DNA of 64,000 nucleotides from Bacteroidota bacterium (lineage in GTDB: Bacteria > Bacteroidota > Bacteroidia > Chitinophagales > Chitinophagaceae). Of the stretch, positions 19,369 to 60,610 are shown one piece after another; position 1 is the stretch's first letter; each line of letters starts with the position of its first letter. The notes beneath the pieces were generated by a model. The model was not told the DNA's origin, searched no databases, and saw nothing but the letters and a program-made list of their open reading frames with translations. Where the stretch lies: positions 248,001 to 312,000 of the forward strand of contig VGFT01000001.1 in NCBI GenBank assembly GCA_016868775.1, given 5' to 3'. A program made the translations under genes and the position numbers.

Positions 19369-20646
19369 CTATGATTTAATGGTTTCCGGCTTTCGCAAAG
19401 GTACAAGAGCGGTCACGATAAAGGCCGGAATGGTAGAAATCAAGACCCAAATGAAAAAATTCGAATACCCATACCGATCACTGATATACCCGCTGATCAT
19501 TGAGGCCGCAGTGTATCCCAAATACGTAATGGCACTTCCAAACGCATAATGAGCCAACGGATACTTCCCCGGCGCCAACTGCTGCATGATAAATAATATG
19601 ATGCCGATGAATCCAAAGCCATAGCCAAAGTACTCGACCGATAAGGCAATTGAGATGGTGAGCATATCCGAGGGCAGGAACCAGGCGAGATATGCGTATA
19701 CCGCGAAAGGCAAATTGAAAAAAGTACAGAGCATCAGCAGCATTTGACGCGTAAGTCCTTTATTGGATACCAGATATCCCGCCAACAACGACCCGGCTAT
19801 AAAAGCAATCGTACCATAAACACCCGTCAGTAACCCAACCTGCGTTTCACTTAAACCCAACCCCCCCTTGGAGTGATCTGCTAAAAAGAAAAGTGGGGTG
19901 ATCTTCATTGCCTGCCCCTCAGCAAAACGATACAACGTAATAAACGCAATACCACCCCAAACCGCCGGCTTCTGAAAGAAACTCCGGATCACATCCACCA
20001 ACGTCTCCCACACCTCCGCGCCGGTTTTCACCGATCGCTCCTCCTGCGTTCGAGGCAATACCCGCGTGCTGTATAATCCCACTAAAAACATCACCACCGC
20101 ATACAATCCCAATACGATCGACCACCCTTTCACATTTCCCATCGAGGCCACTAAACTTCCTGCCAAAAAAACCATTCCTCCATTGGAAAAAACTTTGGCG
20201 ACATTATAGAAAGTTCCCTGCCAGCCCACCCACTGCGCCTGCTCCTTCTCGCTTAATTCAGCTAAATACATACCATCCGCCGCCATGTCTTGCGTAGCCC
20301 CCATAAAAGCCAATAAAAAAAAGAAGACGATGGAAAGCGGAAAAAAATGTTCGGTATACAAACTCATGGCCGCCAAGGCAAAGCAAATGGCAGCCAACAT
20401 CTGCGTTGCATAGATATAAAAACGCCGGGAACGAAACATCTCCAGAAACGGCCCCCACAACGGCTTAAAACTCCAAGGCAACACGATCACCCCGGTCCAA
20501 AAAGCGATTTGACCGTCGGTGTATCCCAGTTTTTTGTACAAAACAGACAACGCCGTACCATTCAACATAATGTTGGGCAGTCCCATCGCAAACCAAGTCG
20601 TTGGTACCCATCTCAACGGAGAAGGGGAAAGATTCAATTTGTTCAA
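19369..20646 (-). CDS. MFS transporter, AmpG-like
   Basis: 425-residue 12-helix major facilitator protein, first gene of the leftward five-gene operon. The N-terminus WFAMGLPNIMLNGTALSVLYKKLGYTDGQI and the helix WKP-like segment LPWSFKPLWGPFLE resemble AmpG-type permeases, which import anhydro-muropeptides or GlcNAc-containing disaccharides. GATQDMAADGMYLAEL on helix 4 is another such block. No in-frame ATG exists before the conserved N-terminus, so the start is the TTG at 20646. This is supported by a 12-base element directly upstream that also abuts the ATG of the AGE epimerase gene. It likely takes up the small product released by the neighbouring hydrolases. Confidence 0.85.
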   Translation of the reverse strand: MNKLNLSPSPLRWVPTTWFAMGLPNIMLNGTALSVLYKKLGYTDGQIAFWTGVIVLPWSFKPLWGPFLEMFRSRRFYIYATQMLAAICFALAAMSLYTEHFFPLSIVFFFLLAFMGATQDMAADGMYLAELSEKEQAQWVGWQGTFYNVAKVFSNGGMVFLAGSLVASMGNVKGWSIVLGLYAVVMFLVGLYSTRVLPRTQEERSVKTGAEVWETLVDVIRSFFQKPAVWGGIAFITLYRFAEGQAMKITPLFFLADHSKGGLGLSETQVGLLTGVYGTIAFIAGSLLAGYLVSNKGLTRQMLLMLCTFFNLPFAVYAYLAWFLPSDMLTISIALSVEYFGYGFGFIGIILFIMQQLAPGKYPLAHYAFGSAITYLGYTAASMISGYISDRYGYSNFFIWVLISTIPAFIVTALVPLRKPETIKS

Positions 20647-20674
20647 GGCAAGCAGTTGATTTTTAGATAAATAG
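20647..20674 (-). promoter_or_regulatory. Shared leader/promoter element of the MFS operon
   Basis: In the sense direction this reads CTATTTATC, a 7-base spacer, then CAACTGCTTGCC, directly followed by the TTG start codon. The same two words, with a 4-base spacer, occur directly before the ATG of the AGE epimerase operon (37933-37957). The upstream TTC-x-CTATTTATC context is also shared. CTATTTATC does not match the usual TAnnTTTG box, so it may be an operator or a promoter read by an alternative sigma factor; CAACTGCTTGCC may be the transcribed leader. Confidence 0.65.
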
Positions 20675-20743
20675 AGAATATGAAAGTTAATAAAAATAAT
20701 TAATAACCAAGCGAAATCAGCACATATTTTTAATTAAGTTCGC

Positions 20744-21943
20744 ATGCGCTTCCGCATGAAATTTACCCCTTTTACCACTCGGATCTTGGCCAGCCTGCTG
20801 GTTGTATTTTCCCTATTCGCCTGCAAAAAAAATGACGGGGGTGGAGGAAGTGGTGGAGGCGGAAACGGTGGCGGTGGCGGCGGGGGAGGAAGTACAACCC
20901 CGGTATGGGATCCAAATGCCCTGCGTGGGGTTTGGGTAACCACTACGGCAAGCACCGCGCTGGACAGCCGCAACAACATCCAGCAAATGGTCACCCAATG
21001 CAAGGCCGCCGGCATCAATCACCTCTTCATCGTGGTGTATAACAATGCCCGCACCATGTATCCCAGTACGGTGATGAACAATCTGATCGGTAAATCCATC
21101 TTAGAACGATTTGAGGGACGTGACCCGTTGCAAGAGTGTGTGGAAGAAGGGCATGCAAAAGGACTCAAAGTTCATGCCTGGTTTGAATATGGATTTTCCT
21201 CTTCGTATTCTGCAAGTGGCGGACCCATCGTAGCGGCCAAACCCCATTGGGCCGCCAGAGACATGAACGGATCGCTGGTCGTGAAAAACGGATTCGACTG
21301 GTTGAACCCCATCCACCCCGAAGTGCAACAATTCATGATCGACCTGTTCAAAGAAGTGGTGACGCGATACGATGTGGATGGTGTTCAAGGCGACGACCGA
21401 TTGCCCGCCATGCCCACCACCGGCAGCTACGATGCCTATACCACCGCACTCTACGCGGCCGAAAACAACGGCGCCTCTCCTCCCCCCAGCGCTACCGATG
21501 CCACTTGGCTGAACTGGCGCGCAAAAAAATTGAACGCCTTTCTCAAACGGTTACGCACCGAAGTAAAGGCGATCAAACCAGCCATTCAACTCACCGTTTC
21601 CCCCAGCCCTTATCCGTGGGGACTAACCGAATACTTACAAGACTGGCCCACTTGGGTCGACAGTAGCTATGTAGATGCCATCCTGCCGCAATGCTACCGA
21701 TACGACATCAGCGCCTATGATGCCACGCTTTCTCAACAAAAGACCTATTACCGCAATCCCAATGTTCCCCTGTACCCGGGCGTATTGCTTCGATCCGGTA
21801 CCTATGTGGCGCCAACTGCTTTCCTGACCCAAATGATACAGGCAAACCGAAACAAAGGTTTCAAAGGAGAAGCCTTCTTCTTCTACGAAGGAATTCCGCC
21901 TACGGCCCCTTGGTTCAGCGGACAATACCCCTTCATCAAATAA
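20744..21943 (+). CDS. GHL10 (DUF187) family glycoside hydrolase-like lipoprotein, copy 2
   Basis: 399 residues (387 if the ATG at 20756 is used, which gives the cleaner signal MKFTPFTTRILASLLVVF). The lipobox SLFAC anchors it, and a glycine/serine/asparagine tether of about 22 residues precedes the barrel. The barrel follows copy 1 closely: LRGVWVTTTASTALDS, GLKVHAWFEYGFSSSY, VKNGFDWLNPIHPEVQQF, DVDGVQGDDRLPAMP and GEAFFFYEGI. Compared with copy 1 it is a membrane lipoprotein rather than a soluble exported protein, so the two probably act in different places or on successive substrates. First gene of the rightward operon with GH92 and GH20; the GH92 start is 6 bases downstream. Confidence 0.86.
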   Translation: MRFRMKFTPFTTRILASLLVVFSLFACKKNDGGGGSGGGGNGGGGGGGGSTTPVWDPNALRGVWVTTTASTALDSRNNIQQMVTQCKAAGINHLFIVVYNNARTMYPSTVMNNLIGKSILERFEGRDPLQECVEEGHAKGLKVHAWFEYGFSSSYSASGGPIVAAKPHWAARDMNGSLVVKNGFDWLNPIHPEVQQFMIDLFKEVVTRYDVDGVQGDDRLPAMPTTGSYDAYTTALYAAENNGASPPPSATDATWLNWRAKKLNAFLKRLRTEVKAIKPAIQLTVSPSPYPWGLTEYLQDWPTWVDSSYVDAILPQCYRYDISAYDATLSQQKTYYRNPNVPLYPGVLLRSGTYVAPTAFLTQMIQANRNKGFKGEAFFFYEGIPPTAPWFSGQYPFIK

Positions 21944-21949
21944 ATCACG

Positions 21950-24109
21950 ATGCACCGTATCGCCGGAATGCTCCTGCTGCTCAGTATCACGCATTTACTA
22001 GCGGCCCAAAAACTGACCCGCTGGGTAGATCCTTTTTTGGGCACAGGCGGACACGGACACGTCTACCCCGGCGCCACCGTTCCTTTCGGAATGGTGCAAC
22101 TCAGTCCCGATAACGGCGTCGAAGGATGGGACTGGTGCAGTGGCTATCACTACTCCAGCAACACCATTGCCGGATTCAGTCACACCCACCTCAGCGGAAC
22201 CGGCATCGGCGATTGGTGCGACATCTCCGTGCTTCCCCTCACCGACACAACAGAAATATCTAAATCTAAAATCCTCCTGCCTTTCGATCATAAAAACGAA
22301 AAAGCCAGTCCGGGTTATTATTCCGTCAAATTAAACAACGGCACTCTCTGCGAACTCACCGCCGATACCCGCACCGGTCACCACCGATACACCTTCCACA
22401 ATAAAAACGGCTGGTTGCGTTTCGATATGGGCTTCGCGATCAATTGGGATAAATCCACCGCCGGTATGCTGCAACGCATCGATGATAAAACAATTGTTGG
22501 ATATCGTTACAGCACAGGTTGGGCAAAGGGACAAAAAGTGTATTTCGCCGCCCGCTTCTCGCAACCCATCTCCTACCACCAATTTCTCGATGATTCTGTT
22601 CATACGAAGGATCAAGCATTTGGTCCACACTCTAAGATCCTCCTGCAATTCAATGAAGGTTCGAAACTGCTTCTACAAGTAACACTCAGCTCCGTCAGCA
22701 CCGAAAAGGCATTGCTAGAACTCAATTACCCAACACGCAATAACGATTTCGAGTCGGTTCGAAGAACAGCCGAACAGCATTGGGAAAAAGAATTGAAAAA
22801 AATTCAGATCGATACCACCGACAAAGCCTTCGCAACCCGCTTCTATACCGCCCTCTACCGAACGGGTCTGGCCCCCGTCATCCACAGCGATCGGGATGGT
22901 GCCTATCAAACCTGGGACTACAAAAACAAAATATTCGCAAAAGGAAAAAACAAATACACGATTTTCTCTCAGTGGGATGTGTTTCGCGCACTTTCGCCCC
23001 TATTCAGCCTCACACAACCCGATCGGATGCCCGATCTGCTCAACAGCTTGCTGCAACGGTATGAAGACGACGGACTCCTTCCGGTTTGGGACATCAGCAC
23101 TTGGGAAGCCAATACAATGACCGGCTACCACAGCATACCCATCCTCGCCGACGCAATCTTGAAAAACATCAAAGGATTCGACTACGAAAAAGCCTACACG
23201 GCCATGCGCGCCTCCGCGTTTCAAAAACAACGCGGCACCCCCGCTTACATCCAGTACGGTTACGTTCCGCAAGATAAATACGGCTGGAGCGTAACCATGA
23301 CGCTGGAATACGCCTTTGACGATTGGTGTATCGCACAAGTGGCCCAAAAACTCGGAAAAGAAGAAGATCATAAACTCTTTACCCAACGGGCCGGCAGCTA
23401 TGCCAAACTCTTTGACGCCAATACCGGATTCATGCGCGGTCGCAAATCGGATGGTTCATTTATTGAACCATTTGATCCGCTCCTCTCGGAACACGGATTC
23501 GACGGACAATACATAGAGGGCACGGCCTGGCAACACAGCTTCTTCGTTCCTCATGCCGTTGATTCACTGGCTGCGCTTTACGGGGGCAAAGAGAAACTGG
23601 TAGCCAAGTTAGATGAACTGTTCACGGCTCCGTCGGAGCTGCATGGCGATAATGTTTCCATTGATGTAACCGGACTGATCGGACAATACGCCCACGGCAA
23701 CGAACCCAGTCACCACATCATTTATATGTACACCGCCCTCGGACATCCTGAAAAAGCCGCCAAATGGCTACAGGTAGTTGCCGACAGTATTTATAAAAAC
23801 GGTCCCGACGGACTCAGCGGCAACGACGATTGCGGACAAATGAGCGCCTGGTATTTATGGACAAGTCTGGGCCTCTACCCCATGAACCCCTGCGGAGGCG
23901 AATACCTGTTTGGATATCCGCTGATACGAAAAGCTACCATGCAGCTTCCCAATAAGAAAACTCTTCGCTTCGAAGTAAAAAAAGAAAAAAAACAAGGTCC
24001 GCCGCACATAACCCGCGTAGAGTGGAATGGTCGATCCATCCCGGTTCGTTCCATACAACATTCCGAATTGCTAAAAGGCGGTACCCTTACCTATTATGTT
24101 GCTGAGTAA
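21950..24109 (+). CDS. GH92 family alpha-mannosidase
   Basis: 719 residues with a signal peptide ending near AAQ, so exported. GH92 enzymes are calcium-dependent exo-alpha-mannosidases acting on N-glycans and yeast mannan; some subfamilies cleave mannose-phosphodiester caps. The N-terminal beta-domain shows VDPFLGTGGHGHVYPGATVP and GFSHTHLSGTGIGD. The catalytic (alpha/alpha)6 domain has EGTAWQHSFFVPH (general-acid Glu about residue 523), GNEPSHHIIYMY and GNDDCGQMSAWY (acidic pair about 626-627, at the catalytic base). All key blocks are present, so it should be active. The linkage preference cannot be told. It overlaps the GH20 gene by 14 bases. Confidence 0.94.
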   Translation: MHRIAGMLLLLSITHLLAAQKLTRWVDPFLGTGGHGHVYPGATVPFGMVQLSPDNGVEGWDWCSGYHYSSNTIAGFSHTHLSGTGIGDWCDISVLPLTDTTEISKSKILLPFDHKNEKASPGYYSVKLNNGTLCELTADTRTGHHRYTFHNKNGWLRFDMGFAINWDKSTAGMLQRIDDKTIVGYRYSTGWAKGQKVYFAARFSQPISYHQFLDDSVHTKDQAFGPHSKILLQFNEGSKLLLQVTLSSVSTEKALLELNYPTRNNDFESVRRTAEQHWEKELKKIQIDTTDKAFATRFYTALYRTGLAPVIHSDRDGAYQTWDYKNKIFAKGKNKYTIFSQWDVFRALSPLFSLTQPDRMPDLLNSLLQRYEDDGLLPVWDISTWEANTMTGYHSIPILADAILKNIKGFDYEKAYTAMRASAFQKQRGTPAYIQYGYVPQDKYGWSVTMTLEYAFDDWCIAQVAQKLGKEEDHKLFTQRAGSYAKLFDANTGFMRGRKSDGSFIEPFDPLLSEHGFDGQYIEGTAWQHSFFVPHAVDSLAALYGGKEKLVAKLDELFTAPSELHGDNVSIDVTGLIGQYAHGNEPSHHIIYMYTALGHPEKAAKWLQVVADSIYKNGPDGLSGNDDCGQMSAWYLWTSLGLYPMNPCGGEYLFGYPLIRKATMQLPNKKTLRFEVKKEKKQGPPHITRVEWNGRSIPVRSIQHSELLKGGTLTYYVAE

Positions 24110-27246: not shown

Positions 27247-28346
27247 TATAAATCGTCGAAAGGGCTACGAATCTGTTCAAGATTTTTGTTGCTGACGTGT
27301 GTATATATTTCCGTGGTACGGCTGCTGCCATGACCCAGCAAAACCTGGATATATCGCAGATCTGTACCACACTCCAATAAATGTGTTGCATAACTGTGCC
27401 GAAGCCAGTGCAAAGTAGCCGGCTTCCCAATCCCCGCCTTGCACAGCGCCTGTTAAAAAAACCTGCTGTATGCTCTTTTCGCTGTATTGTGCATCTCCCT
27501 GGCCCTCAAACAAATACAGCTTTGGGCGGTAAGCAACATAATAGCTGCGCAATTGTTCAAGCAGAGTCGCCGGAATCGGTACCACCCGGTCCTTCTTACC
27601 CTTGGCTTGCCTAATAAACAACAAGCCCCGATCCGATTGAATGTCTGTCGGTTTAATATTTAATAATTCGCCCCGGCGAAGGCCACAAGCATAAATAAGG
27701 GCCAACATAACCCGATGCTTCTCATTGACCGGTGCGGCTAAAATTCGCTTCACCTCCGATTTAGACAATATATTGGGTAGCCGCTTTTCTCGCCTCGGAC
27801 GCACGATCCCCTCCGGATTTATTCGCATGCCCGATTGAATACTAAAAAATAATTTCACCGCATTGATAATCTGATTCTGAAACGAAACCGATAACCCCCT
27901 CTTTAATATATACTCCGTATTGAAACGGATGATGTCCTCATCCGACACAACACGCAGCGGCTTATCCTGTAAAAATTGCAAAAACACCCACAACGCATCA
28001 ATATATACACGTACGGTATTATCACTATATCGCTTGCTTTGCATCCATTGCTCAAACCTTACCACCTCAACCCCATACAGCTCTTCCACCCGACCACGTC
28101 CTACCAAACGAGCCACTTCCTGATCGGCTTCCGCACAGCTTACAACCGCGTGCTTTGACAACTCGACCTTCACGTGCTCATACTGAAATGCGTATACGCT
28201 ACCAACCAACTGCGATGAACTGAACTCCACTTAGCATCACCCAGCCGCTTTACGATCTCAATCAATACAGCATGATACGGAAATTGAATGCGTATCCACT
28301 GCTGTTTACCCGTTTGTAATAAACGAACCTGAATCAATGGCAACAT
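27246..28346 (-). pseudogene. Tyrosine recombinase/integrase, broken by two frameshifts
   Basis: Three reading frames must be joined. The N-terminal arm-type domain begins at the ATG at 28346 (MLPLIQVRLLQTGKQQWIRI, later AKWSSVHRSWLVAYT). The frame changes at about 28165-28200; the core-binding domain (YSDNTVRVYIDALWVFLQFL) and the first half of the catalytic domain follow, with Arg in ACGLRRGELL and Lys in QAKGKKDR. A second shift near the A-run at 27455-27461 is needed to read [16 protein letters not shown] (His-x-x-Arg), [15 protein letters not shown] (His and nucleophile Tyr, codon 27303-27305) and the end SPFDDL. All catalytic residues survive, so decay is recent or the indels are sequencing artefacts. 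It lies between the two halves of the glycan locus. Confidence 0.85.
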
Positions 28347-28466: not shown

Positions 28467-29855
28467 TCAAGTTCTCCAGAACCAGCGCTTCTTAACAAAG
28501 AGGTAGGTAATGAGCGAGACGATCCCCGTAAATACCACCCCCTTCGCAAATCCCATCCAGGCATTCTGGTGCATGGCATCCCAATAAGGCTTCACCCCAC
28601 TCAGCGTCATCAGTGGCAATAACAGCAAGCTGCCCGCAACATAGGCTACCATCGGATTTTGTCCCTGTACAGAAAAATAGTTCAGGGGAATACGAAGGAT
28701 TCGATCAAAGCGCCACGACTCAAATACGATCAAAGCAACAAAGGCCAAACCGGAACAAACAAAATAATAACTGTAATTAGACGGATCTTTCTTGATGCCC
28801 CCCTCAAATGCTTCGAAGACTAATCCCAATAGCAATAGATAGGCGCCTGCCTGAAAAAATTTTAATAGATTCTGATTGGCATTGCTTCGAAGCAGCAAAT
28901 ACATACTTACCAAGATCATGACAGACCCAATCAGATTCAATTCCAACTGACGGGTGTACAAGCCAAATAAATTCCAACCGATCAACATCAACTCCAACCA
29001 ACCTGCCCGACGCAAAGATTTTTCGGATGAGACAGGCGACGCCTGCAATTGCATCAGCCATTCTCCGGCAAACATGCCGGGAATGACAAAAAATAAGTAT
29101 TTCAGGAAATAGAACTTGTACGCCCAATCGATCTTGAATGACCCGATCGAATCAAATGAATAGAAATCCTTCACCCACCCGGGTTGCTTGGCTGATAAAA
29201 ATATTCCCATGATAACTGGAAGAATAGCTACACGGACCCAGGGACGATGTTGCGCGCAACCATAGATGATCGTTCCGAAAAAAGCCATGTTGGCCAACAC
29301 CATAAGGATGATATCCGAACGATATAAGTCGAATGATGCCTCTTTTGCATAATGAATCTGCGTCATCCATACAATAGAGGCAATCAGTGCAATTACCCGG
29401 AGCATCGTTCGCATACGATCGGCAAGGATCGACCTCCAATCGTACAGTACCACGAAAAGCAGCATAAATGCGGACAAGGATTGAAGTTGATCCATGGTTC
29501 GAGGCTGATCCGATAAAACCCAGGCTTTGAAGTGTTGCGTGAATAAGGCAAAGAATAATAACAGTACGAACCGACGAATAGCTAACCAAAACAAATTTGA
29601 AAAGGTATCCTTCTGTATGGGCTGACGGATTACCAGCGGAAAAGCGGCGCCCATACTGAACAGAAAAAACGGAAAAACCAGGTCAACCCACGTGATCCCG
29701 GGGCGAGTGGGATCAAACACATGAGCAGGTGGTGGTACTTGCGCATGGTACATCCACCCGGGCAATACATCTCCAAAAGCAATGCTCCCGGAAAGCACCA
29801 TGGTTAGGATGGCGAATCCCCGAAGGGCATCCAGCGACTCAAGTCTTTGTTTCAT
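28467..29855 (-). CDS. DUF5009 membrane protein, NagX/HGSNAT-like acetyltransferase
   Basis: 462-residue membrane protein with about ten to eleven helices. The N-terminus LESLDALRGFAILTMVLSGS and the following ITWVDLVFPFFLFSMGAAFPL are typical of the acyltransferase-3/HGSNAT-related family (DUF5009). Eukaryotic HGSNAT acetylates terminal glucosamine across the lysosomal membrane; bacterial NagX proteins are found in N-acetylglucosamine utilisation loci, where an acetyl transfer role is proposed but not settled. Last gene of the leftward AGE-FAD-SusC-SusD-DUF5009 set. A terminator-like hairpin separates it from SusD, so it may be expressed at a lower level or from its own promoter. The start ATG is at 29855. 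Confidence 0.83.
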   Translation of the reverse strand: MKQRLESLDALRGFAILTMVLSGSIAFGDVLPGWMYHAQVPPPAHVFDPTRPGITWVDLVFPFFLFSMGAAFPLVIRQPIQKDTFSNLFWLAIRRFVLLLFFALFTQHFKAWVLSDQPRTMDQLQSLSAFMLLFVVLYDWRSILADRMRTMLRVIALIASIVWMTQIHYAKEASFDLYRSDIILMVLANMAFFGTIIYGCAQHRPWVRVAILPVIMGIFLSAKQPGWVKDFYSFDSIGSFKIDWAYKFYFLKYLFFVIPGMFAGEWLMQLQASPVSSEKSLRRAGWLELMLIGWNLFGLYTRQLELNLIGSVMILVSMYLLLRSNANQNLLKFFQAGAYLLLLGLVFEAFEGGIKKDPSNYSYYFVCSGLAFVALIVFESWRFDRILRIPLNYFSVQGQNPMVAYVAGSLLLLPLMTLSGVKPYWDAMHQNAWMGFAKGVVFTGIVSLITYLFVKKRWFWRT

Positions 29856-29925: not shown

Positions 29926-31701
29926 TTACCAGCCTGTGTTTTGAACGAGATTTTTATTTTTGTCCAACTCCCCTTGCGGAATGGGCCAAAGCTTATATCT
30001 CGGATTTTGGTTGGTACGGGTTTGAACCCGAGTCTTCAACCGCTTGGGCACACTAGCAGTGTAATTGGGAATATCATTGTTGTCGAACGTGGGCGTTCCC
30101 GCAGGCACGTTAGGATCTAATGATACGCCTACGACTGGGAAGCTATTCGCCTGAGAATAGATATCCCAGCGACGCAGATCGATCAAACGCTGTCCCTCTC
30201 CTGCCAATTCCACCGCGCGTTCGCGACGAACTTGCTGACGAAGGGCAGCCTGAGAACCGGAAGTTACCGGCGGCATGCGGGCACGGGCCCGAACGGCATT
30301 GAGTGCTGCGAACATGTTCGCATCAAGTTCATTCAGCTCAGTCTTGGCCTCTGCGTACATCAGGAGGATGTCGGCATAGCGCATGTTGATATAACCGGTC
30401 TTGGTTTCCCAAGAGTACTGTGTGGAGTCGTTGTACTTTCTCCAGATATATCCAACGCCACCACTGGAACCGGTAGCACCGGCAAACCAGGGAGAAGCCA
30501 GAAATCCGATCCAGTCTATGTTGCTGGGAACGTTATCGTACACGTTGGTATTCCAGTTGAACTTACGGCGCACATTGGAATAAATATTGAATATAGTGCG
30601 CTCCTTGGGCTGTACGTAAGGCAAAGCAGGAGTTTTGGACGTATTATGCACCATGGTATCGCCTTGCATGTAGAGTGTCCAGCGTAAACGAGGATCGCGG
30701 TTCAGAGAAGGCGCCGCCGGGTTGTAAACAGCGGATTGATCAATCCGCTTTCCGTCGATACCCTCGAACTTATCAACGAGCGACTGGGTCGGGAAATGGC
30801 TGCTTTGAGAAGTACCTACCTGGCGGGGAATCGTCAATACGGTCAACCAGTTCTGCGGATCCAATACATCCGTGGGATAGGTCTGAACAAACATACACTC
30901 GCGGTTTGCGTTGGCACGCTGACCCGACAGAATGAACAGATCCGTATAACGCGGATTCAACCCATATTGGTTGGAGGTAATGACGGCTTGCGTGGCGTTC
31001 TTGGCGGTAGACCAATCGCTGATCAACAAAGCCAGCTTGGCTTTCACACCCAAGGCTACGCCTTTATTAACGCGACCATAGTTGATGATGGGGGCAGCAC
31101 CCGCCTGATCAAATAATTGAGCGGCCTCATCAAGATCCGTATAAAGAGCGGCTACTGCCTGAGATACGGGTGTACGAGAAATGGTCTCATATTCTTCCGG
31201 CGCCAATGGCTTTTGGAAAAACACAGGATCTCCAAACCATCCCATGATGTGATAATAACCCCAGGCACGCAGTGTGAGCGCTTCTGCACGGATGCGGCGG
31301 TAACTGGCAGCGGGAACATTGGCTTCCCCTTTTTTCATACCATCGAGCAGGATGTTGGCACGGGTAACCAGTTTGTAAGCCTGAGTCCAGCAGGTAGAAG
31401 GAAGCGAGTTCGAGATCAAAAACGGACCGCCATCGCCCATGGCGATCTGGTCTTCTGCATTACCGGTACGCTTGATCGCGAGATCGGTAGTTGCCTCCAC
31501 GGCAAAAAGTAAAGGGGTGTTGTTGGGAAAGGCCCAGAAGGAAGAAGCGTAGACGCCATTCAATCCCAGGTCCATCTCCGCCTCCGTCTGGAAGAAAGTG
31601 GCCGACGAGGCACTATCCAACGGCTGCCGGTCGAGAAATTTACTACAACCCGCAACGAGCACCAGCGATGCGATCAATACGATCGATGTTATCTTTTTCA
31701 T
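29926..31701 (-). CDS. SusD/RagB-family nutrient-binding lipoprotein
   Basis: Surface glycan-binding lipoprotein that caps the SusC transporter. 591 residues. The signal ends in the lipobox VLVAGC with Cys19, followed by SKFLDRQPLDS and the SusD N-terminal segment. TPR-like helices occur in the centre (YRRIRAEALTLRAWGYYHIMGWFGD, the classical SusD stretch). The C-terminal RagB/SusD region includes YADILLMYAEAKTELNELD and RRERAVELAGEGQRLIDLRRWD, a strong family mark. It starts 18 bases after the SusC gene. Ligand specificity cannot be told from sequence; the context suggests N-acetylhexosamine- or mannose-containing glycans. Confidence 0.96.
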   Translation of the reverse strand: MKKITSIVLIASLVLVAGCSKFLDRQPLDSASSATFFQTEAEMDLGLNGVYASSFWAFPNNTPLLFAVEATTDLAIKRTGNAEDQIAMGDGGPFLISNSLPSTCWTQAYKLVTRANILLDGMKKGEANVPAASYRRIRAEALTLRAWGYYHIMGWFGDPVFFQKPLAPEEYETISRTPVSQAVAALYTDLDEAAQLFDQAGAAPIINYGRVNKGVALGVKAKLALLISDWSTAKNATQAVITSNQYGLNPRYTDLFILSGQRANANRECMFVQTYPTDVLDPQNWLTVLTIPRQVGTSQSSHFPTQSLVDKFEGIDGKRIDQSAVYNPAAPSLNRDPRLRWTLYMQGDTMVHNTSKTPALPYVQPKERTIFNIYSNVRRKFNWNTNVYDNVPSNIDWIGFLASPWFAGATGSSGGVGYIWRKYNDSTQYSWETKTGYINMRYADILLMYAEAKTELNELDANMFAALNAVRARARMPPVTSGSQAALRQQVRRERAVELAGEGQRLIDLRRWDIYSQANSFPVVGVSLDPNVPAGTPTFDNNDIPNYTASVPKRLKTRVQTRTNQNPRYKLWPIPQGELDKNKNLVQNTGW

Positions 31702-31719: not shown

Positions 31720-34700
31720 TTAGAAATTAATATTTACGCCGGCGGTAATGGTCCGCATCAGCGGATAGAACTCAGCGGTTTGACTATTGATCTCTGGATC
31801 AAAACCATCCCAGGCCTTTGTGAATGTGAGTACATTCTGGGCACTTACATACACTTTGGCACTGCGAATGCCTGTTTTCTTCAGCATCGCCTCGGGTATC
31901 CGATAGGCCAGGTTGATGTTCTTGATGCGGAAGAAGGAAGCATCCCGGATCCACTGAGAGGAGGCAACATAGTTGTTTCCGCCATTACCCGAAGGCAACA
32001 GACGAGGGAAGCGCGCATCGGGATTTCCGGGTGTCCAGTAATCCTTATGCATGGCCAACAACGAAGCAGCGAAATCGGTACTGGCAAACGGAACCGCACC
32101 GGTACCACTGTAGTAGTTATTGCGCTTTCCAACACCCTGACCGAACAGGTTCAGATCAAAATGACCATAGCTGAGGTTCAGGTTGATGCTGTACTCGTAA
32201 CGGGGGAAGTTGTTGCCGATGAACGTACGGTCAAAAGCATCCACTTTACCGTCGGGTTTTCCATTCGGACCGCTGATGTCCGCATATTTCACGTCACCGG
32301 GCTTGGGACCAATGGCGGGATTAACATTCCAAGGAACACCAAATTGTACCGGAGAAGCTTTGATGTCGTTGGAATCGCTGAAATAACCAAGCGACTGATA
32401 TCCAAAATAACTCCAGAGCGCCTGCGTGGGCGCGGTACGGATTGAACCGCCATCCAGGAAGGGAACACCGGGCAAAGTATTGACACGGTTCTGGACATCG
32501 GAAATCATCGCCGTTACATCCATCTTCAGCTTGTTGAAGTTCTTCTTATAATTCATGCTGAACTCCCAGCCTTTGTTTTCCATGCTACCCGCATTTACAA
32601 AAGGAGCACTGAGCCCAACATAAGCCGGAATTGGACGAACCAACAACATATCCTTGATCAAACGATAATAGAAATCGAGTGTGAAAGAAAGATTGTTTTT
32701 GAAGGTCACATCAATACCTGCGTTATTCTGAAACGATTGCTCCCAGGTAATACCGGGGTTCGGAGCCTCCAACAACGCATAACCCAAGGTGGTTACGTTG
32801 TTGATGTAGTTAAAGGTTCCGTTGTTAGGGTTGGAATACGTACCGGTAGCAAAATTGACCGCGAAGGGATAGATCTCCGGCAATGCCTGGTTACCCATCG
32901 AACCGGCCGATCCGCGGATTTTGGCAAACGTGATGAACTTGGAGAAGGGGAAGAATTTTTCCTTCGAGATAATCCAGCCGGCTGATCCGGAAGGGAAGAA
33001 TCCCCACTGCTTATTCAACTCTTGTGAGAAGCGGGAAGAACCATCGTAACGGCCGTTCAATTCAAAGTAATACTTGTCCGCCAAACTATAGTTGAAGCGG
33101 GAGTAAAATCCGGCTAGTGCCGTCTCGTAGGCAGATCCTGAGTTGTTGAGGTTAGACGCTCCCAAACCCAGATAAGGCTGGTTGGGATTCAGGAAACCGG
33201 TACGGGAAGCGCCGATACCCGAATAGGTGAATTCCTCTGTTTGAGCACCAGCCAGCAATTTGAAATTGCTTTGTCCTACCCGCGCTGAATAAGTGGCCTG
33301 CGCCAAATAAGTAGTACGCACGTTGGTGGAATAAGACTCTGACAAAGAAGTGGTACCCGGCCATACGCCAACCTTATCGTATGCACGTGTCACCAAATTG
33401 GGTACATAGATATCCGCATTCTTCACGAACGATTTGTTATTCGGCACCCAATATTCACGCGCCCAAGAAGCTTCGATCTCAACATTGCTGATGGGACGAT
33501 AATTCACCCCGATCTTGGAAAGGATCGAGTTGGTCTTGGTATACGCCGTACCGGCCGCTTCGGCCATCGCCAGCGGGTTCCGGTTGTTGGTCTGTCCGGC
33601 TGTGCCGTACATACCCGGACCAAACTTCGCTGCACCGATAGCCGGCAAACCAATAGCCTGACGAATGATGAACTCCGCTGAACCGGTAGACGGATTGATC
33701 GTCTTGCTGTTGTTCACGTTCAACACCCCATTGATGCTCAGCTTATCGTTGATTTTGAAATCCGGATTGAAACGGATATCATAACGAGTGAAACTGTTAT
33801 TCGGGATCAACCCCTGCTGATTCAAATAGGTAACCGAAGCGAAAATGTTGGTATTCTCTCCGGCCGAATTCAGCGTCAGGTTATGGTTCTGCATGATCCC
33901 ACTGTTGGTCAGCAACAGGTCCACCCAGTTGTTGTTGATCACATCCAGGTTGTTGTGCGGAAACTGCTTGTATTGATCGATCACGGATTGTGGGAACAAA
34001 AAGGCGTTGGGGTTACCGGTACGATTTTGTTCTGCCAGATTGCTCAGCTCCATATGCTCGATCGCCGATGTGCGCTCGGGAATCGCGGTAGCTTGCTGCT
34101 TGGTCAGGAACGCATTGTAAGAAACCTGCACTCCTTTTCCTTTGGCGCGACGGGTCTTAACCAGAATTACCCCGTTCGCCGCCCGCGTACCATAAATAGC
34201 CGTAGACGCCGCGTCCTTCAAAATGGTGATGCTTTCAATGGCATTGGGATCAATGGCATCCAGACTGGATACCACACCGTCGACCATGATCAGGGGACTC
34301 TGTCCCGCATAGATTGAACCCAATCCACGAATACGGATAGAGGCTCCATCCGCACCCGGACGGCCGGATTGCTGTTGAACCGTTACACCAGGTGCCAATC
34401 CCTGCAAGAGATTGCTGGCCGTGGCCACCTGACGCTTGAGCAGTTCTTCCTGCTTCAGGGTAACTACCGAGCCCGTGATCGCGGCTTTCTTCTGCTGTCC
34501 ATAACCGACCACGACCACCTCGGAGAGGCTGGCATTGGTGGCCTTCATCTGAACAGAAACAGAACCGCCCTCCGCTTTCACCTCTTGGCTCTCATAGCCA
34601 ACACCACTGAATACAAGGGTCTCTCCTTTCTGTACGGTAAGCGCATACTCGCCCACCGAATTGGTAATGGTTCCGGAAGGCTTGCCCTTCACCGAAACGG

Positions 34701-34821
34701 AAATGCCTTCCAGGCCATTCCCATTGGCGTCGGTCACCCTTCCAGCCACTTTTAGATTTTGTGCCCAGACAGCTGCCCATGCGAACAGCAACATCGAGCA
34801 CAATAAGGCTGCTTTTTTCAT
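31720..34821 (-). CDS. SusC/RagA-family TonB-dependent outer-membrane transporter
   Basis: 1033-residue outer-membrane oligosaccharide importer. Order: signal peptide (MKKAALLCSMLLFAWAAVWA), carboxypeptidase-regulatory-like domain (VAGRVTDANGNGLEGISVSV), TonB-box-like SEVVVVGYGQQKKA, plug domain with ASNLLQGLAPGVTV and RGLGSIYAGQSPLIMVDG, the SusC-specific block ITILKDAASTAIYGTRAANG, and a 22-stranded barrel ending in GVNINF with a terminal Phe. There is no extra N-terminal signalling domain, so it is not a direct partner of an ECF anti-sigma system. Coupled with SusD downstream and the FAD oxidoreductase upstream. Confidence 0.97.
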   Translation of the reverse strand: MKKAALLCSMLLFAWAAVWAQNLKVAGRVTDANGNGLEGISVSVKGKPSGTITNSVGEYALTVQKGETLVFSGVGYESQEVKAEGGSVSVQMKATNASLSEVVVVGYGQQKKAAITGSVVTLKQEELLKRQVATASNLLQGLAPGVTVQQQSGRPGADGASIRIRGLGSIYAGQSPLIMVDGVVSSLDAIDPNAIESITILKDAASTAIYGTRAANGVILVKTRRAKGKGVQVSYNAFLTKQQATAIPERTSAIEHMELSNLAEQNRTGNPNAFLFPQSVIDQYKQFPHNNLDVINNNWVDLLLTNSGIMQNHNLTLNSAGENTNIFASVTYLNQQGLIPNNSFTRYDIRFNPDFKINDKLSINGVLNVNNSKTINPSTGSAEFIIRQAIGLPAIGAAKFGPGMYGTAGQTNNRNPLAMAEAAGTAYTKTNSILSKIGVNYRPISNVEIEASWAREYWVPNNKSFVKNADIYVPNLVTRAYDKVGVWPGTTSLSESYSTNVRTTYLAQATYSARVGQSNFKLLAGAQTEEFTYSGIGASRTGFLNPNQPYLGLGASNLNNSGSAYETALAGFYSRFNYSLADKYYFELNGRYDGSSRFSQELNKQWGFFPSGSAGWIISKEKFFPFSKFITFAKIRGSAGSMGNQALPEIYPFAVNFATGTYSNPNNGTFNYINNVTTLGYALLEAPNPGITWEQSFQNNAGIDVTFKNNLSFTLDFYYRLIKDMLLVRPIPAYVGLSAPFVNAGSMENKGWEFSMNYKKNFNKLKMDVTAMISDVQNRVNTLPGVPFLDGGSIRTAPTQALWSYFGYQSLGYFSDSNDIKASPVQFGVPWNVNPAIGPKPGDVKYADISGPNGKPDGKVDAFDRTFIGNNFPRYEYSINLNLSYGHFDLNLFGQGVGKRNNYYSGTGAVPFASTDFAASLLAMHKDYWTPGNPDARFPRLLPSGNGGNNYVASSQWIRDASFFRIKNINLAYRIPEAMLKKTGIRSAKVYVSAQNVLTFTKAWDGFDPEINSQTAEFYPLMRTITAGVNINF

Positions 34822-34849: not shown

Positions 34850-36739
34850 TTATGGTGATATAATGTTTCCTTGATGATTGACCGCCCTGGATCGAAACGG
34901 ATCCGCCAACCGATCCAAAGCCACCGCTACCTCGATCCGTCGCACCGGACGGTCCGCACTCCACGATGAAAATCCGGCCGATTCAAACAGTTCACTTACT
35001 TGTCCAGCCGTGAAGGTGCCAGTACGAAATTGATCCAATACCCAAATCAGATCTTTCCCCATAACGAACAACCCGGGATCTTGTTGAGCCGTTTTTTGGA
35101 TATAGGCAGATAAGCCTTGATTTAAATCCGACCAACGAACCAACGAGTCAGCATCGAACCAAGTCCGATTGGCCCAACCCGATGGCTGTAATCGGCCCCG
35201 CAATAAACCCGTCGCACCAATTCGCTGCACCGAAGCAAAATGCGGATGCGCCGGGGTGATGTCGGCATACGGCATGATATACGCCTTCGCATCCAATAAC
35301 GCCTGCTGCAATTCCCGAACCGGCACATCGATCGCTGCTCGATGCGACAGCGCGGCTTTGGCTGCCAATAGTCCGGCTGCCTGTCCCGTCAACAACACAC
35401 AAGGCTGCAACCGCGTGGTTCCATTGACCACATTGCTCACGCTGATCGATTTTTCTGCCGCAATAATTCCTTTGTAGACGGGCGGAATCAAAGAGCCCAA
35501 TGGCACATTATAAGAAGGCACCGGATAAAATCCCAAATGCTGCGGGGCGTTGGGATTCTTGCGATGATGATGATCGATCGGATAATCACCTACCGAAATA
35601 CCCGTCCGATACAACGAGGCTTCCTCGCTGAAAGGACGAGAAAGATGCTGAACCTTGAATCGGGTTAGCCCCCGCATCCGCCTTCCCTCTCGGTGATAAA
35701 CCATATACGGCAACCGATCCGATGTCTGAAACTCATCGTTGGCTAAGCCAAGGTGACGAAAACCCAATTGCGTCTGCAAAAAATAAATAAAACGCAAGGT
35801 TTGTTGCTTGGCCGCTTCCAGTGCTTCCCGACGCTGCACAGGGTTGAGCGAGATCAAGGAGAGATAAATATCATTTCCATACCCGGGCCAATTGATCATG
35901 TACTTCCGGTTCGGCAGCTGACCATAGGCGATCATCTTCTTCGCGTCCACATTGGGCGCCAAACGAGTTTTATCCAAATAATAATCGGTACAAGCGCCGT
36001 CGAATTCAAGCGGGTCGTAATTCGGCGGACGAACAATGGTGCAATCGGCTCCCACTCCATAATCCTTTAAAATCGCCGCATACGTAACATCCTGAATGAT
36101 GTCATTCGAAGCCGGTACGTTCACGTCCTCTCCTGTCACCGAAGAAGCTTCCATGCCCACATCAAAAGGAACTCCCGCCAACGCGATCGCATCCCCCAAC
36201 TCCGTGGCATCAATCAACTGCCGAGAACGCACTACTAATTCTTTCCCGGTCGTCCCCTGCTTAAAACGTGCTCCGTTGATTCGATCTCCTTTTTTAAGCA
36301 CCTCCACCAATTCATATCCATACAGCACCGTCAGATTCGATTCACGCGCCGCCATCGATTTGAAAATACTATCCCCCACATGCGGTTCAAATTGTGTGTT
36401 GCTCACCCAACCGGTTGCAACTTTATTGGGACCACCATAAACCTTATACAACTGCTCGCGAAACTCCGCCCACAAACCCGAAGGAAGCAAATGATTGCCA
36501 TCGGTGGCCGAAACGCCCGCCGCTGTCAACATGCCGCCCAGCCAAGGCGTTGGCTCCACAATTAACGTACGAGCACCGGTACGGGCCGATTGAATGCCGG
36601 CCGCAGTTCCTCCTACACCACCACCCACAACCAACACATCTACCCGACGCGATTGCGCATAGGCCGATCGACTGCTAAGCAGATTCAATCCGGCCAACAC
36701 CAAGATCATGAGCAATATAGGTGAACGCTTGAGGATCAT
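34850..36739 (-). CDS. Secreted FAD-dependent oxidoreductase (FAD_oxidored family)
   Basis: 629 residues with an export signal (LMILVLAGLNLLSSRSAYAQ). The FAD-binding Rossmann start is RVDVLVVGGGVGGTAAGIQS, followed by EPTPWLGGMLTAAGVSATDGNH and LIDATELGDAIALAG, all typical of this family (PF12831). A late PCVLLTGQAAGLLAAKAA block closes the FAD domain, and the last ~120 residues form a separate helical region. Secreted members are frequent in Bacteroidota glycan loci; sugar oxidation is a reasonable guess but no substrate is proven. The start ATG overlaps the AGE epimerase stop (ATGA), so translation is coupled. Confidence 0.85.
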   Translation of the reverse strand: MILKRSPILLMILVLAGLNLLSSRSAYAQSRRVDVLVVGGGVGGTAAGIQSARTGARTLIVEPTPWLGGMLTAAGVSATDGNHLLPSGLWAEFREQLYKVYGGPNKVATGWVSNTQFEPHVGDSIFKSMAARESNLTVLYGYELVEVLKKGDRINGARFKQGTTGKELVVRSRQLIDATELGDAIALAGVPFDVGMEASSVTGEDVNVPASNDIIQDVTYAAILKDYGVGADCTIVRPPNYDPLEFDGACTDYYLDKTRLAPNVDAKKMIAYGQLPNRKYMINWPGYGNDIYLSLISLNPVQRREALEAAKQQTLRFIYFLQTQLGFRHLGLANDEFQTSDRLPYMVYHREGRRMRGLTRFKVQHLSRPFSEEASLYRTGISVGDYPIDHHHRKNPNAPQHLGFYPVPSYNVPLGSLIPPVYKGIIAAEKSISVSNVVNGTTRLQPCVLLTGQAAGLLAAKAALSHRAAIDVPVRELQQALLDAKAYIMPYADITPAHPHFASVQRIGATGLLRGRLQPSGWANRTWFDADSLVRWSDLNQGLSAYIQKTAQQDPGLFVMGKDLIWVLDQFRTGTFTAGQVSELFESAGFSSWSADRPVRRIEVAVALDRLADPFRSRAVNHQGNIISP

Positions 36740-37932
36740 CCGGGCAATTCAGATAATGTTTTATACACTTGATACAACGAACGCGGAATGTGAAAACAAC
36801 CTTTCCATTTTCCACCCTTCAACGGCAACAACACCTCTCCCCGACGATTCAGGTATCCAAACCACTCGCCATATTCCTCATCCCGAAAATGCGACCAGGT
36901 ATACGCGTGTAGTTTCTCGAACCACTGCGCACAACGCGGATCGCCCGTCAAGGCATACCCCTTGGCTAATCCCACCAGCGTCTCTACATGTACCCACCAA
37001 AGTTTTTGATCCCACTCCAATTGCTGCGGCGGATGTCCTTTGATATCCAGAAAATAAAAAATACCGCCGTGCTCCTGATCCCATCCATGCTCCAACGTAT
37101 GGAGCAAAATATCCTTCGCTTTTTCGATCAATGCTTGATCTCCAAATCGATTGCCCAGATCCATGATGAACCACATCGCCTCAATGGCGTGACCCGGATT
37201 GAATACCCTTCCTTCAAAACTATCGCTGGGCGTTCCATCCGGATGCACATTCTCCAGGATCAATCCCGAATCCGGCTGATAAAAGACATTCATCACCTGA
37301 TCCACCACCTGCGGAGCAAATGAATTCACCCGATTGGCCCCGATCAAATGCTCCAACTCCAACGAGAGGTTGCATAAGATCATGGGTAAACTAAAATTCT
37401 TAAGGGGACGAGTACCCGGTACCGCCTTGCTGTAAATGCCCTTCCAATTGTCCTGCCGACGAATGATGTTCTCAAACGTATCCAAGGCGATCTGCTTCCA
37501 CTCATCTCGTGGCTGCACCCGATCCAACGCCGCAAACGCCATTGTCGCAAAACAATCACTGAAAATATTATACGGCTGCACAAGCGGTATTCCTTCCGCC
37601 GTTAACGAAAAATACCAATTGCCCTCGGCATCCCGTCCATGCTGCTTCAAAAACTCCGCACCCAATAAGGCCGTATGCAACCACTGCGGATTCGCCTCCA
37701 ACTGCTTATACATATAACTGAAACACCAAACCTGCCGACCCTGCAACCACACAAACTTGTCGGTATCGTATACCTTCCCGTACCGATCCAAACACGTGAA
37801 ATAACCACCGTTCTTTTCATCGCGGCTGTGCTCCACCCAAAACGGCAGAATGTTATCCTTTAATTCGGATAAATACAATTCACTGTGACGGGCAATCCCC
37901 ATAGAGGTTGCGGCAGCAGCATTCGCAAGCAT
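36736..37932 (-). CDS. AGE family epimerase (N-acylglucosamine 2-epimerase type)
   Basis: 398-residue (alpha/alpha)6-barrel sugar epimerase without a signal peptide, so cytoplasmic. Family marks: GGYFTCLDRYGKVYDTDKF, KFVWLQGRQVWCFSYMY, GRVFNPGHAIEAMWF (catalytic His), QKLWWVHVETLVGLAKGY and KGCFHIPRSLYQ (second catalytic His). The KGCFH block favours the GlcNAc/ManNAc 2-epimerase group over cellobiose epimerases, but this is not certain. It would channel N-acetyl sugars into catabolism. First gene of the SusCD operon. The ATG at 37932 is supported by an abutting element identical to that before the MFS gene. Confidence 0.9.
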   Translation of the reverse strand: MLANAAAATSMGIARHSELYLSELKDNILPFWVEHSRDEKNGGYFTCLDRYGKVYDTDKFVWLQGRQVWCFSYMYKQLEANPQWLHTALLGAEFLKQHGRDAEGNWYFSLTAEGIPLVQPYNIFSDCFATMAFAALDRVQPRDEWKQIALDTFENIIRRQDNWKGIYSKAVPGTRPLKNFSLPMILCNLSLELEHLIGANRVNSFAPQVVDQVMNVFYQPDSGLILENVHPDGTPSDSFEGRVFNPGHAIEAMWFIMDLGNRFGDQALIEKAKDILLHTLEHGWDQEHGGIFYFLDIKGHPPQQLEWDQKLWWVHVETLVGLAKGYALTGDPRCAQWFEKLHAYTWSHFRDEEYGEWFGYLNRRGEVLLPLKGGKWKGCFHIPRSLYQVYKTLSELPG

Positions 37933-37957
37933 GGCAAGCAGTTGGATGGATAAATAG
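37933..37957 (-). promoter_or_regulatory. Shared leader/promoter element of the AGE-SusCD operon
   Basis: In the sense direction CTATTTATC, a 4-base spacer and CAACTGCTTGCC directly precede the ATG at 37932. Both words and the abutting position match the MFS operon start at 20647-20674 (spacer 7 there). This links the two operons as one regulon. The rest of the 166-base gap to the ROK gene is AT-rich. Confidence 0.65.
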
Positions 37958-37998: not shown

Positions 37999-38045
37999 GT
38001 ACTTTTTAATTTATTTTATTAAGATAGAAGTTTTTCGTACTTTTT
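37999..38045. promoter_or_regulatory. Paired GTACTTTTT direct repeats between the AGE operon and the ROK gene
   Basis: GTACTTTTT occurs at 37999-38007 and again at 38037-38045 in the AT-rich gap between the divergent operon and its regulator gene. A repeated word in such a place could be an operator for the ROK repressor, but the word is T-rich and chance is possible. Confidence 0.3.
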
Positions 38046-38098: not shown

Positions 38099-39331
38099 AT
38101 GGCCAGCCACCTGCGACTTTTTGAAGTATTCAGCGACGAGAACGCCTCCGGGGTGGTGTTCAAGAACAGATCACTCAAAAGATTGATAATCAATACGATA
38201 GATAAGAATGGCCATTCTACCATTACCGAGCTGAGTCGGGAACTGAACACCAGTGTGCCCAAGGTCACCAGCTTGGTGAACGAACTGATCGAGGATGGCC
38301 TGCTGAAGGACGAAGGCAAATTCGATTCCACCGGTGGGCGAAGGGCCAGTATATATGGACTGGTGTCGGAGGCCTGTTATTTTATCGGGGTGGATGTAAA
38401 GCGATACTACGTGAATGTGGGGCTATTGAATTTCAAGAAGCAATTGGTCGATCTCCACGAAAAGATCCCCTACAAATTGGAGAACACCCCGGAGTCCTTA
38501 AAACAATTATTGACCATCATCCGAAACTTTATCAAGGAGCAGAAGATCAAGCAGGAAAAGATCCTGAGCGTGGGCATCAACTTATCGGGCCGCATCAATC
38601 ACACCAACGGATACAGTTACAGCTATTTTCATTTTCATGAAGAGCCGCTGGCCATGGTGATCGAAAAAGAGATCGGCATTCCGGTGGTGTTGGAAAACGA
38701 CTCCCGCGCCATGGCGTATGGGGAATATTGCGGCGCGGAGATCCAAAACCGAAGCAACGTGCTGTTCGTGAACATGGATTACGGAATTGGTCTGGGGGTA
38801 TTGATCGATGGAAAACTGTATTACGGAAAATCTGGTTTCAGCGGAGAGTTCGGGCACATCCCCTTCTTTGAAAACGAAATACTTTGTCACTGTGGCAAAA
38901 AAGGCTGTCTGGAAACCGAGGCCTCCGGTATGGCCCTGATCCGAAAATTTAGTGAACGGATCGAACAGGGTTCAAGCTCATCGGCCATGCGAAAGAAAAA
39001 ATCCGTAGGCGAAATCACGCTGCTCGACATCATTCAGGCCGCCCAAAACGAAGACATCCTCTCCATCGAGATCCTGGCCGATATCGGTGAGAAATTGGGA
39101 AAAGGAATTGCGATGCTGATAAACGTGTTCAATCCGGAATTACTGATCTTGGGCGGAACCCTCTCGGAAACGGGTGATTATTTACGACTGCCCATCCGCA
39201 GCGCCGTGAACAAATACTCCCTCAGCTTGGTGAACAGCGATACACAACTGCTGCTTTCCAAATTGGGAGAACGAGCCGGGGTCATGGGCGCTTGCCTGAT
39301 CGCCCGAAACAAAGTACTCTATCGTTATTGA
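38099..39331 (+). CDS. ROK-family transcriptional regulator (NagC/Mlc type)
   Basis: 410 residues. An N-terminal winged helix-turn-helix (STITELSRELNTSVPKVTSLVNELIEDGLL, read in two parts around residues 40-70) is followed by a ROK sugar-binding domain. Marks are VLENDSRAMAYGEYCGA, VNMDYGIGLGVLIDGKLY, GFSGEFGHIPF and the zinc site CHCGKKGCLETEASG. It lacks obvious loss of the kinase-like active site, so sugar-kinase activity cannot be excluded, but the DNA-binding domain argues for a repressor that senses a (N-acetyl)hexose or its phosphate. It is divergent from the AGE-SusCD operon, the classical position of a local regulator. Its last 7 bases overlap the convergent DUF420 gene. Confidence 0.92.
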   Translation: MASHLRLFEVFSDENASGVVFKNRSLKRLIINTIDKNGHSTITELSRELNTSVPKVTSLVNELIEDGLLKDEGKFDSTGGRRASIYGLVSEACYFIGVDVKRYYVNVGLLNFKKQLVDLHEKIPYKLENTPESLKQLLTIIRNFIKEQKIKQEKILSVGINLSGRINHTNGYSYSYFHFHEEPLAMVIEKEIGIPVVLENDSRAMAYGEYCGAEIQNRSNVLFVNMDYGIGLGVLIDGKLYYGKSGFSGEFGHIPFFENEILCHCGKKGCLETEASGMALIRKFSERIEQGSSSSAMRKKKSVGEITLLDIIQAAQNEDILSIEILADIGEKLGKGIAMLINVFNPELLILGGTLSETGDYLRLPIRSAVNKYSLSLVNSDTQLLLSKLGERAGVMGACLIARNKVLYRY

Positions 39332-60580: not shown

Positions 60581-60610
60581 AACCCTTAGGGTTCAGGGTT
60601 TAGGGTTTAG
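60581..60610. repeat. Telomere-like TTTAGGG repeat, second copy
   Basis: The palindrome-like word AACCCTTAGGGTT (60581-60593) is followed by CAGGGTTTAGGGTTTAG (60594-60610). The latter 17-mer is identical to 7559-7575. It lies in the 71-base gap between the E1 start and the end of the M16 gene, again adjacent to a promoter-like box. Confidence 0.7.

Follow-up and report, generated by a model that had tools for sequence, protein, structure and literature searches.

A predicted ROK operator and a putative leader shared by two glycan operons of a Chitinophagaceae bacterium

In the 64,000-nucleotide stretch of DNA analyzed here (the window), we consider it fairly probable that two separate elements are shared by two sugar-uptake operons of an uncultured bacterium, an epimerase operon and an MFS transporter operon: a 22-bp palindrome acting as the ROK operator of a small regulon, and a 12-mer forming a conserved leader. 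Judged from sequence, the palindrome most likely serves the adjacent ROK regulator as its operator, and it is better evidence for a common switch than the 12-mer is. The 12-mer is probably functional, contributing to the expression of these genes, since four genomes retain it at both operons and it recurs before another transporter in relatives.

The epimerase operon (minus strand) encodes, in order, an N-acyl-D-glucosamine 2-epimerase (AGE), an FAD oxidoreductase, SusC, SusD, and a DUF5009 protein. In the MFS operon, the AmpG-like transporter is followed by a GDSL lipase, a DUF4434 protein, a GHL10 protein, and an NAGPA-type protein. The protein encoded divergently from the epimerase operon combines a ROK domain (residues 96 to 404) with an N-terminal DNA-binding helix-turn-helix (HTH_24, 8.9e-9, residues 26 to 70), the two parts looked for in a ROK regulator. 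This arrangement is that of NagC and Mlc, its top NCBIfam matches (202 and 185 bits); however, both scores lie far below the equivalog cut-offs (650 and 530), so that assignment as a NagC equivalog (NF047937) was rejected, and the operator predicted here differs in being almost pure A+T. Assignment of the MFS protein as an AmpG muropeptide transporter was likewise rejected, the score of 133.1 bits comparing with a TIGR00901 cut-off of 350. Relatives suggest, by eye, a start of the divergent GHL10 gene at 20756. A tyrosine recombinase gene (Phage_integrase, window 27277-28230) lies between the GH20b and DUF5009 genes, and its C-terminal part looks altered by eye.

Features of the two loci, in window positions
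Feature	Position	Strand	Remarks
AmpG-like MFS transporter, gene 1 of MFS operon	19369..20646	-	Pfam MFS_1; TIGR00901 133 bits
12-mer CAACTGCTTGCC	20647..20658	-	Abuts TTG of MFS operon; 11/12 columns identical in four related genomes
9-mer CTATTTATC, MFS operon	20666..20674	-	Possible -7-like box; relatives do not conserve it
AT-rich palindrome GTTAATAAAAATAATTAATAAC, predicted ROK operator	20686..20707		Between MFS and GHL10 operons; PWM 14.0 bits, rank 2/239
GHL10 glycosidase-like gene	20744..21943	+	Divergent from MFS; followed by GH92 and GH20b-domain protein
DUF5009 membrane protein	28467..29855	-	Pfam DUF5009
SusD-like lipoprotein	29926..31701	-	Pfam SusD_RagB
SusC-like TonB-dependent transporter	31720..34821	-	Pfam Plug, CarbopepD_reg_2, TonB_dep_Rec_b-barrel
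FAD-dependent oxidoreductase, gene 2 of epimerase operon	34850..36739	-	Pfam FAD_oxidored
N-acyl-D-glucosamine 2-epimerase (AGE)	36736..37932	-	NF052547 656.8 bits, above the cut-off of 600; Pfam GlcNAc_2-epim
12-mer CAACTGCTTGCC	37933..37944	-	Abuts ATG of epimerase operon; 9/12 columns identical in four related genomes
9-mer CTATTTATC, epimerase operon	37949..37957	-	Possible -7-like box; relatives do not conserve it
AT-rich palindrome CTTTTTAATTTATTTTATTAAG, predicted ROK operator	38002..38023		Between epimerase operon and ROK gene; PWM 16.5 bits, rank 1/239
ROK-family regulator with N-terminal winged HTH	38099..39331	+	Divergent from epimerase operon; Pfam ROK 4e-58, HTH_24

An AT-rich palindrome as predicted ROK operator

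When the AGE-ROK and MFS-GHL10 intergenic regions were compared, their best ungapped 20-mer match was AT-rich and identical at 17 of 20 bases, a level reached by none of 173 other intergenic regions (best, 16). Each of the two regions holds a 22-bp palindrome, with a consensus of about CTWAATAAAWWATTTTAWTAAG, and the two copies match their own reverse complements at 14/22 and 16/22 bases. We scored it with a symmetrised PWM trained on 15 AGE upstream loci of other genomes, the genome under study and all MFS sites being excluded; the 22-bp seed was chosen by eye among AGE upstream regions, after the AGE and MFS alignments had been seen. Among the 239 intergenic regions of a 464-kb genome sample (the window plus 400 kb of the same contig), our two regions ranked first and second, with 16.5 and 14.0 bits, the third reaching 7.7 bits. 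Outside intergenic regions two sites appeared, one of 11.4 bits (window 24102) and one of 10.8 bits elsewhere in the 464-kb sample. The former (24102-24123) is the third-best match to the operator motif and lies inside the start of the GH20b-domain gene; it may be a chance match or an internal site.

A sequence-only covariance model, R1, was then used, comprising 19 AGE-upstream sites (the AGE site of this genome included, no MFS site) and leaving out four weaker training sites (L226, L233, L238, and L241) and duplicate sites. In the genome under study, with 150 of 306 first-look candidates scored, R1 gave two matches at E<=5, namely, the AGE (0.114) and MFS (1.26) sites. Among the 12 related genomes having the MFS gene, it found the MFS site in 10 (G007, G029, G034, G016, G013, G006, G017, G025, G023, and G033; E of 0.11 to 1.64) and missed those of G014 and G060. 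These E-values are weak singly, and their force lies in which places come up. In sets of 500 mononucleotide shuffles, the observed PWM score was reached at most once for 12 of 13 MFS regions and all 13 AGE regions; the exception was the G060 MFS region, whose 7.7 bits were reached by 17 of 500 shuffles.

The motif also followed the presence of a ROK gene. Counting it as present at 9 bits or more in the 300 nt upstream, a threshold set after the scores had been seen, we found it in 19 of 21 untrained loci with a ROK match inside the retrieved locus versus 3 of 44 without (65 loci; Fisher 2e-11), and, with own-genus loci left out, in 13 of 15 with a ROK gene (Fisher 1e-8). The 21 ROK loci include a partial ROK match (L247), a ROK gene 2.4 kb away (L253), and a same-strand ROK gene (L277), and 2 of the 19 positive loci (L262 and L287) do not exceed their own 40 shuffles; contigs end close upstream in several of the 65 loci, among them L232, one of the three exceptions. 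Part of the contrast reflects composition, because divergent promoters are A+T-richer than operon-internal regions, and, the predicted operator being nearly pure A+T, another AT-binding protein could bind it instead.

As looked for in a ROK regulator, the palindrome thus occurs, on sequence criteria, both in the regulator's own divergent promoter region and in the promoters of its presumed targets. If it is the ROK operator in both regions, then AGE-FAD-SusCD, ROK, MFS, and GHL10-GH92-GH20b would constitute one small amino-sugar/glycan regulon under a sugar ligand: the regulator would bind the palindrome and control the AGE, ROK, MFS, and GHL10 operons upon an amino-sugar signal. At MFS and GHL10, the palindrome would overlap the -33 region or lie a short way upstream of it; at AGE it would lie further upstream. 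The original prediction had linked the two operons as a regulon through the repeat abutting their start codons, itself proposed as a possible ROK operator. The link between the operons is retained, via the 22-bp palindrome, but the part of the operator is not one for the 12-mer: the palindrome fits it instead, and a third gene carries the 12-mer without a palindrome.

The 12-mer before the two start codons

On the minus strand, positions 20647-20674 read CTATTTATC-TAAAAAT-CAACTGCTTGCC, followed by TTG (20646-20644), and positions 37933-37957 read CTATTTATC-CATC-CAACTGCTTGCC, followed by ATG (37932-37930), so that the sequences, coordinates, and spacers (7 and 4) first reported were correct at both sites. 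The gapped pair of 9-mer and 12-mer was found twice in the window, versus 0.00 times in shuffles, and a search of the entire 2.03-Mb genome returned exactly two places, both abutting a start codon, as the original prediction would have it; the 12-mer alone likewise occurs exactly twice in the whole genome. Allowing one mismatch added 20 further sites, and inspection of the frames covering each of them showed none directly before a start, L097 being located within a frame shortly after the ATG.

In the 464-kb sample, where a simple ORF rule called 367 genes, positions -12 to -1 were fully identical in 1 of 67,161 gene pairs, the MFS/epimerase pair. Sharing an exact 12-mer somewhere within upstream stretches of up to 40 nt was not rare, as 55 such 12-mers were counted among the sampled genes, many of which overlap or come from simple sequence or TAAACCC arrays; similarly, 2 of 173 other intergenic regions have some 12-mer in common with the epimerase region. 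The unusual feature is the exact position of the shared 12-mer, not the sharing of some 12-mer upstream. On the genome counts, the shuffles, and the pairwise comparison, chance was rejected as the source of the pair at this position. The word TGCTTGCC was present within 35 nt before, or at, only 2 of the 367 sampled starts, which are these two (0.3 expected), and a general start-codon signal of the genome was therefore rejected as well.

Orthologous upstream regions were compared in the 13 genus genomes (the one under study, G000, included) that have both an epimerase of at least 71% identity and an MFS orthologue, distant AGE homologues (24 to 37% identity) being left out of the counts. The core of the 12-mer, AAYTGCTTGYC, was kept at both operons in four of them, as the original prediction would lead one to expect. 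G000 and G007 carry an exact 12-mer at the epimerase, where G014 has one change and G060 three; at the MFS gene, the copy is exact in G000, G007, and G060, with one change in G014. Over these four genomes 9 of its 12 columns are invariant at AGE and 11 at MFS, compared to 1 and 4, respectively, of the preceding 12 columns. Coevolution of the two sites at a C/T position (C at both in G000 and G007, T at both in G014) was considered and dropped because G060 has T at AGE and C at MFS.

The 9-mer, which had been presented as a constant part of the element, is changed or lost in the three nearest relatives: at AGE it reads CTTTTCATC in G007 and CTATTTTTT in G014, at MFS it reads CTATTTCTT in both, and in G060 it is unrecognisable at AGE and MFS alike. 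The 9-mer and the 12-mer are not one conserved unit, and the former is at most a weak, replaceable -7-like box.

Upstream of AGE, the 12-mer is absent from the nine more distant genus genomes (9 of the 13 with both operons), in which AGE begins ATGCTWGC and MFS shows GCTTGYC, with its TTG as the apparent start codon. The MFS region of G017 keeps the 12-mer with one change, and that of G025 keeps it with one inserted base. The G017 MFS orthologue is broken by two stops; its upstream region was counted and its frame left unrepaired. Both stops are TAG codons within one matching piece (L331 10485-11612; L040/L041), and a neighboring gene contains a masked stretch. These comparisons, in which apparent MFS start codons were read by eye, also bear on the proposal that the element fixes both start codons: relatives support the ATG of the epimerase gene, but the element does not fix the TTG of the MFS gene, for which 10 of 13 genomes apparently use the TTG within GCTTGYC as start, in a different frame.

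Recurrence of the leader at other genes

A search of 13 genomes for the 12-mer gave 26 sites, and most of those whose context was read lie inside frames. In G023, however, one of the sites immediately precedes the ATG of a nucleoside-symporter-type MFS gene, on a contig other than that of AGE/MFS. Directly before the ATG of this third transporter, TATTTAT-N3-CAAYTGCYTGCY, with at most one change in the 12-mer, was found in 9 of 16 genomes read (G023, G025, G006, G033, G017, G013, G034, G016, and G002). The leader is degraded in G003 and G011, G020 has only AGCTTGCC nearby, and it is absent from G000, G007, G014, and G060 among the 16. In the six leader-bearing relatives scored, the third transporter has no palindrome (best PWM score, 4.7 bits or less). 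Decay of the leader in G003 and G011, which have no AGE and MFS orthologues, is suggestive but weak evidence, because G002 (74% complete) keeps the leader though it too is without these orthologues. The upstream region of the third transporter differs in the clade of the genome under study. In L332 and L333, the transporter adjoins what we take, by eye, to be a GMC-oxidoreductase-like gene and a divergent Gfo/Idh/MocA-like gene. The GHL10 leaders of G014 and G060 (GAACGCTTGTCT before ATG) also look related by eye, those of G000 and G007 less so.

In 394 genomes of the family, CAAYTGCTTGCCWTG gave 36 sites in 34 genomes; a count by eye put the reversed control at about 10. We read 30 of the 36: two belong to G000/G014, and of the other 28, 24 fall within frames of 200 codons or more and four (L132, L133, L136, and L144) within shorter frames. 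In one of the 24, L142, the word lies 17 codons from the beginning of a 522-codon frame and is immediately followed by an ATG. Apart from these five candidates, the 30 sites read included no clear regulatory copy outside the genus, and G000 and G014, each with two sites at starts, were the only ones to have any among the eight own-genus genomes drawn. A widespread family element was rejected on this search. A relaxed pattern within the genus produced more than 100 sites in 38 of 42 genomes, and in the 27 of these loci that were read the only recurrent class at starts was the third transporter.

Promoter geometry, rival readings, and known systems

In the 367-gene sample, TAnnTTTG shows a peak at exactly 12 nt upstream of the called start (12 of 57 matches), and A is enriched at -11 (49%) and -10 (44%). 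The peak suggests a set of leaderless mRNAs and fits the published geometry: the Bacteroidota primary promoter is described, in the portion of the source available, as TTTG/TAnnTTTG, with transcription in Flavobacterium johnsoniae starting 12 nt from the T (T-12) and its mRNAs being mostly leadered (PMC6847099). By the T-12 rule, the TATTTATC box at -24 would place the AGE mRNA start at the first letters of the 12-mer. The likeness to the primary promoter as there described (PMC6847099) is a TA spaced suitably for transcription to start immediately ahead of the 12-mer; the difference is that TATTTATC agrees with only four of six fixed bases and lacks conservation, changing in relatives. The promoter call behind the leader is thus weak, since CTATTTATC is off TAnnTTTG at 2 of 6 fixed positions, is changed at the G007 AGE, and is unrecognisable in G060. 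By the geometry of the phylum, the epimerase mRNA would start at about -12/-11, in which case the 12-mer would be essentially its whole 5' UTR; such a leader could act at the DNA level, as a start-site or initially transcribed element, or at the RNA level. Arrays of the heptamers TAAACCC/TAAACAC lie near gene starts at window 7563-7640 and 60591-60609 (7 matches with one mismatch allowed, versus 0.75 expected), and these words also precede other genes in the genome sample.

A purely RNA-level role is a possible reading to which we give a limited share of our confidence. A small RNA or RNA-binding protein would read (AA)YTGCTTGYC at mRNA 5' ends and control translation or decay of a dispersed glycan-uptake regulon. 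TGCTTGYC indeed occurs around the start codons of separate operons in varied registers and frames, as pairing near the ribosome site predicts, and many of its changes are C/T (by eye), tolerable to an antisense G, but transitions are the commonest change anyway. A precedent is GibS of Bacteroides thetaiotaomicron, described in the accessible part of its report as a GlcNAc-induced small RNA that changes the transcript levels of metabolic enzymes (PMC7366714). The likeness is RNA-level control tied to N-acetylglucosamine, which one reading of the leader needs; the difference is that the small RNA is known there, whereas none was identified here in the 464-kb sample, which is 23% of the genome. 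A complementary-seed scan of that sample gave four other intergenic matches, and no 16S was found in it. An extended form, which we hold to be similarly doubtful, is that a Chitinophagaceae-like clade labels the mRNAs of a dispersed glycan-uptake set with a 5'-terminal tag, AAYTGCTTGYC, which covers the start codon or immediately precedes it; a trans-acting RNA or protein would recognise the tag, adding a further level of control to that by ROK. The tagged set would then be epimerase-SusCD, AmpG-like MFS, GHL10-GH92-GH20b, and, in relatives, the nucleoside-symporter-type MFS.

No likelier, in our estimate, is that the 12-mer plays no part in regulation in its own right. In the AGE region of this genome, CTGCTTGCC|ATGCTTGCG forms a tandem repeat of 9 bp, which could have arisen by duplication of the start region: the AGE copy would be a start-region relic (ATGCTTGCC duplicated or edited to CTGCTTGCC-ATGCTTGCG), the MFS copy an ancestral TTG start, and their identity partly convergence. 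Relatives starting with ATGCTTGCC or ATGCTAGC at AGE and with C-TTG-YC at MFS are in line with this. However, the CAAY part matches too, most of the 12-mer is conserved at AGE in G007, G014, and G060 despite its position upstream of the start, and the same element abuts the ATG of another transporter in 9 of the 16 genomes read.

Unlikely, and more so than the preceding readings, is a dedicated promoter, CTATTTATC-N4-7-CAACTGCTTGCC, for an alternative sigma factor. The -7-like word does depart from TAnnTTTG, the third transporter has TATATTTAT ahead of the element in those leader-bearing relatives that were read, and upstream of AGE in G029, G013, G034, and G016 TATTTAW is followed at about the same spacing by AACTGC, with the start codon about 30 nt further downstream. 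Nevertheless, G007 has an altered 9-mer and G060 has lost it, the exact pair occurs at no other place in the genome, and no sigma factor is linked. Finally, it is very improbable that the 12-mer, alone or together with the 9-mer, serves as the ROK operator: both copies do lie in promoter regions of the predicted ROK regulon and a weak CAA-N4-TTG dyad can be seen by eye, but the 12-mer is absent upstream of AGE in 9 of the 13 genus genomes that keep both AGE and MFS and also in the wider AGE loci read, while the palindrome persists and tracks ROK genes, and the third transporter of relatives has the 12-mer with no palindrome (4.7 bits or less in the six scored).

Returning to the reading with a palindromic operator and a separate leader, the operons seem to make up a single small ROK regulon of a known type, because amino-sugar ROK regulators are already known, including the predicted NanR of Bacteroides, and the leader looks like an extra, lineage-specific feature. 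In the available part of its description, the regulon of NanR (BT0433), a ROK regulator, covers sialic acid and N-acetylglucosamine and is itself predicted (PMC3878776). The likeness, drawn apart from any comparison of motifs, lies in a ROK regulator, an amino-sugar pathway, the same phylum, and prediction by comparative genomics; the difference is that Bacteroides is a different bacterial group. Within the accessible portions of the open-licence literature on ROK operators and epimerase-SusD-ROK loci in this phylum, we found no description of such an operator or leader.

The eye-catching repeat of the original prediction is thus real, yet it is not the operator. The palindrome provides a concrete predicted operator, and a predicted regulon, for the ROK regulator that adjoins N-acylglucosamine 2-epimerase in many Bacteroidota loci. 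Bacteroidota are a phylum without Shine-Dalgarno signals, and a short conserved leader abutting start codons may offer a handle on the control of such mRNAs.
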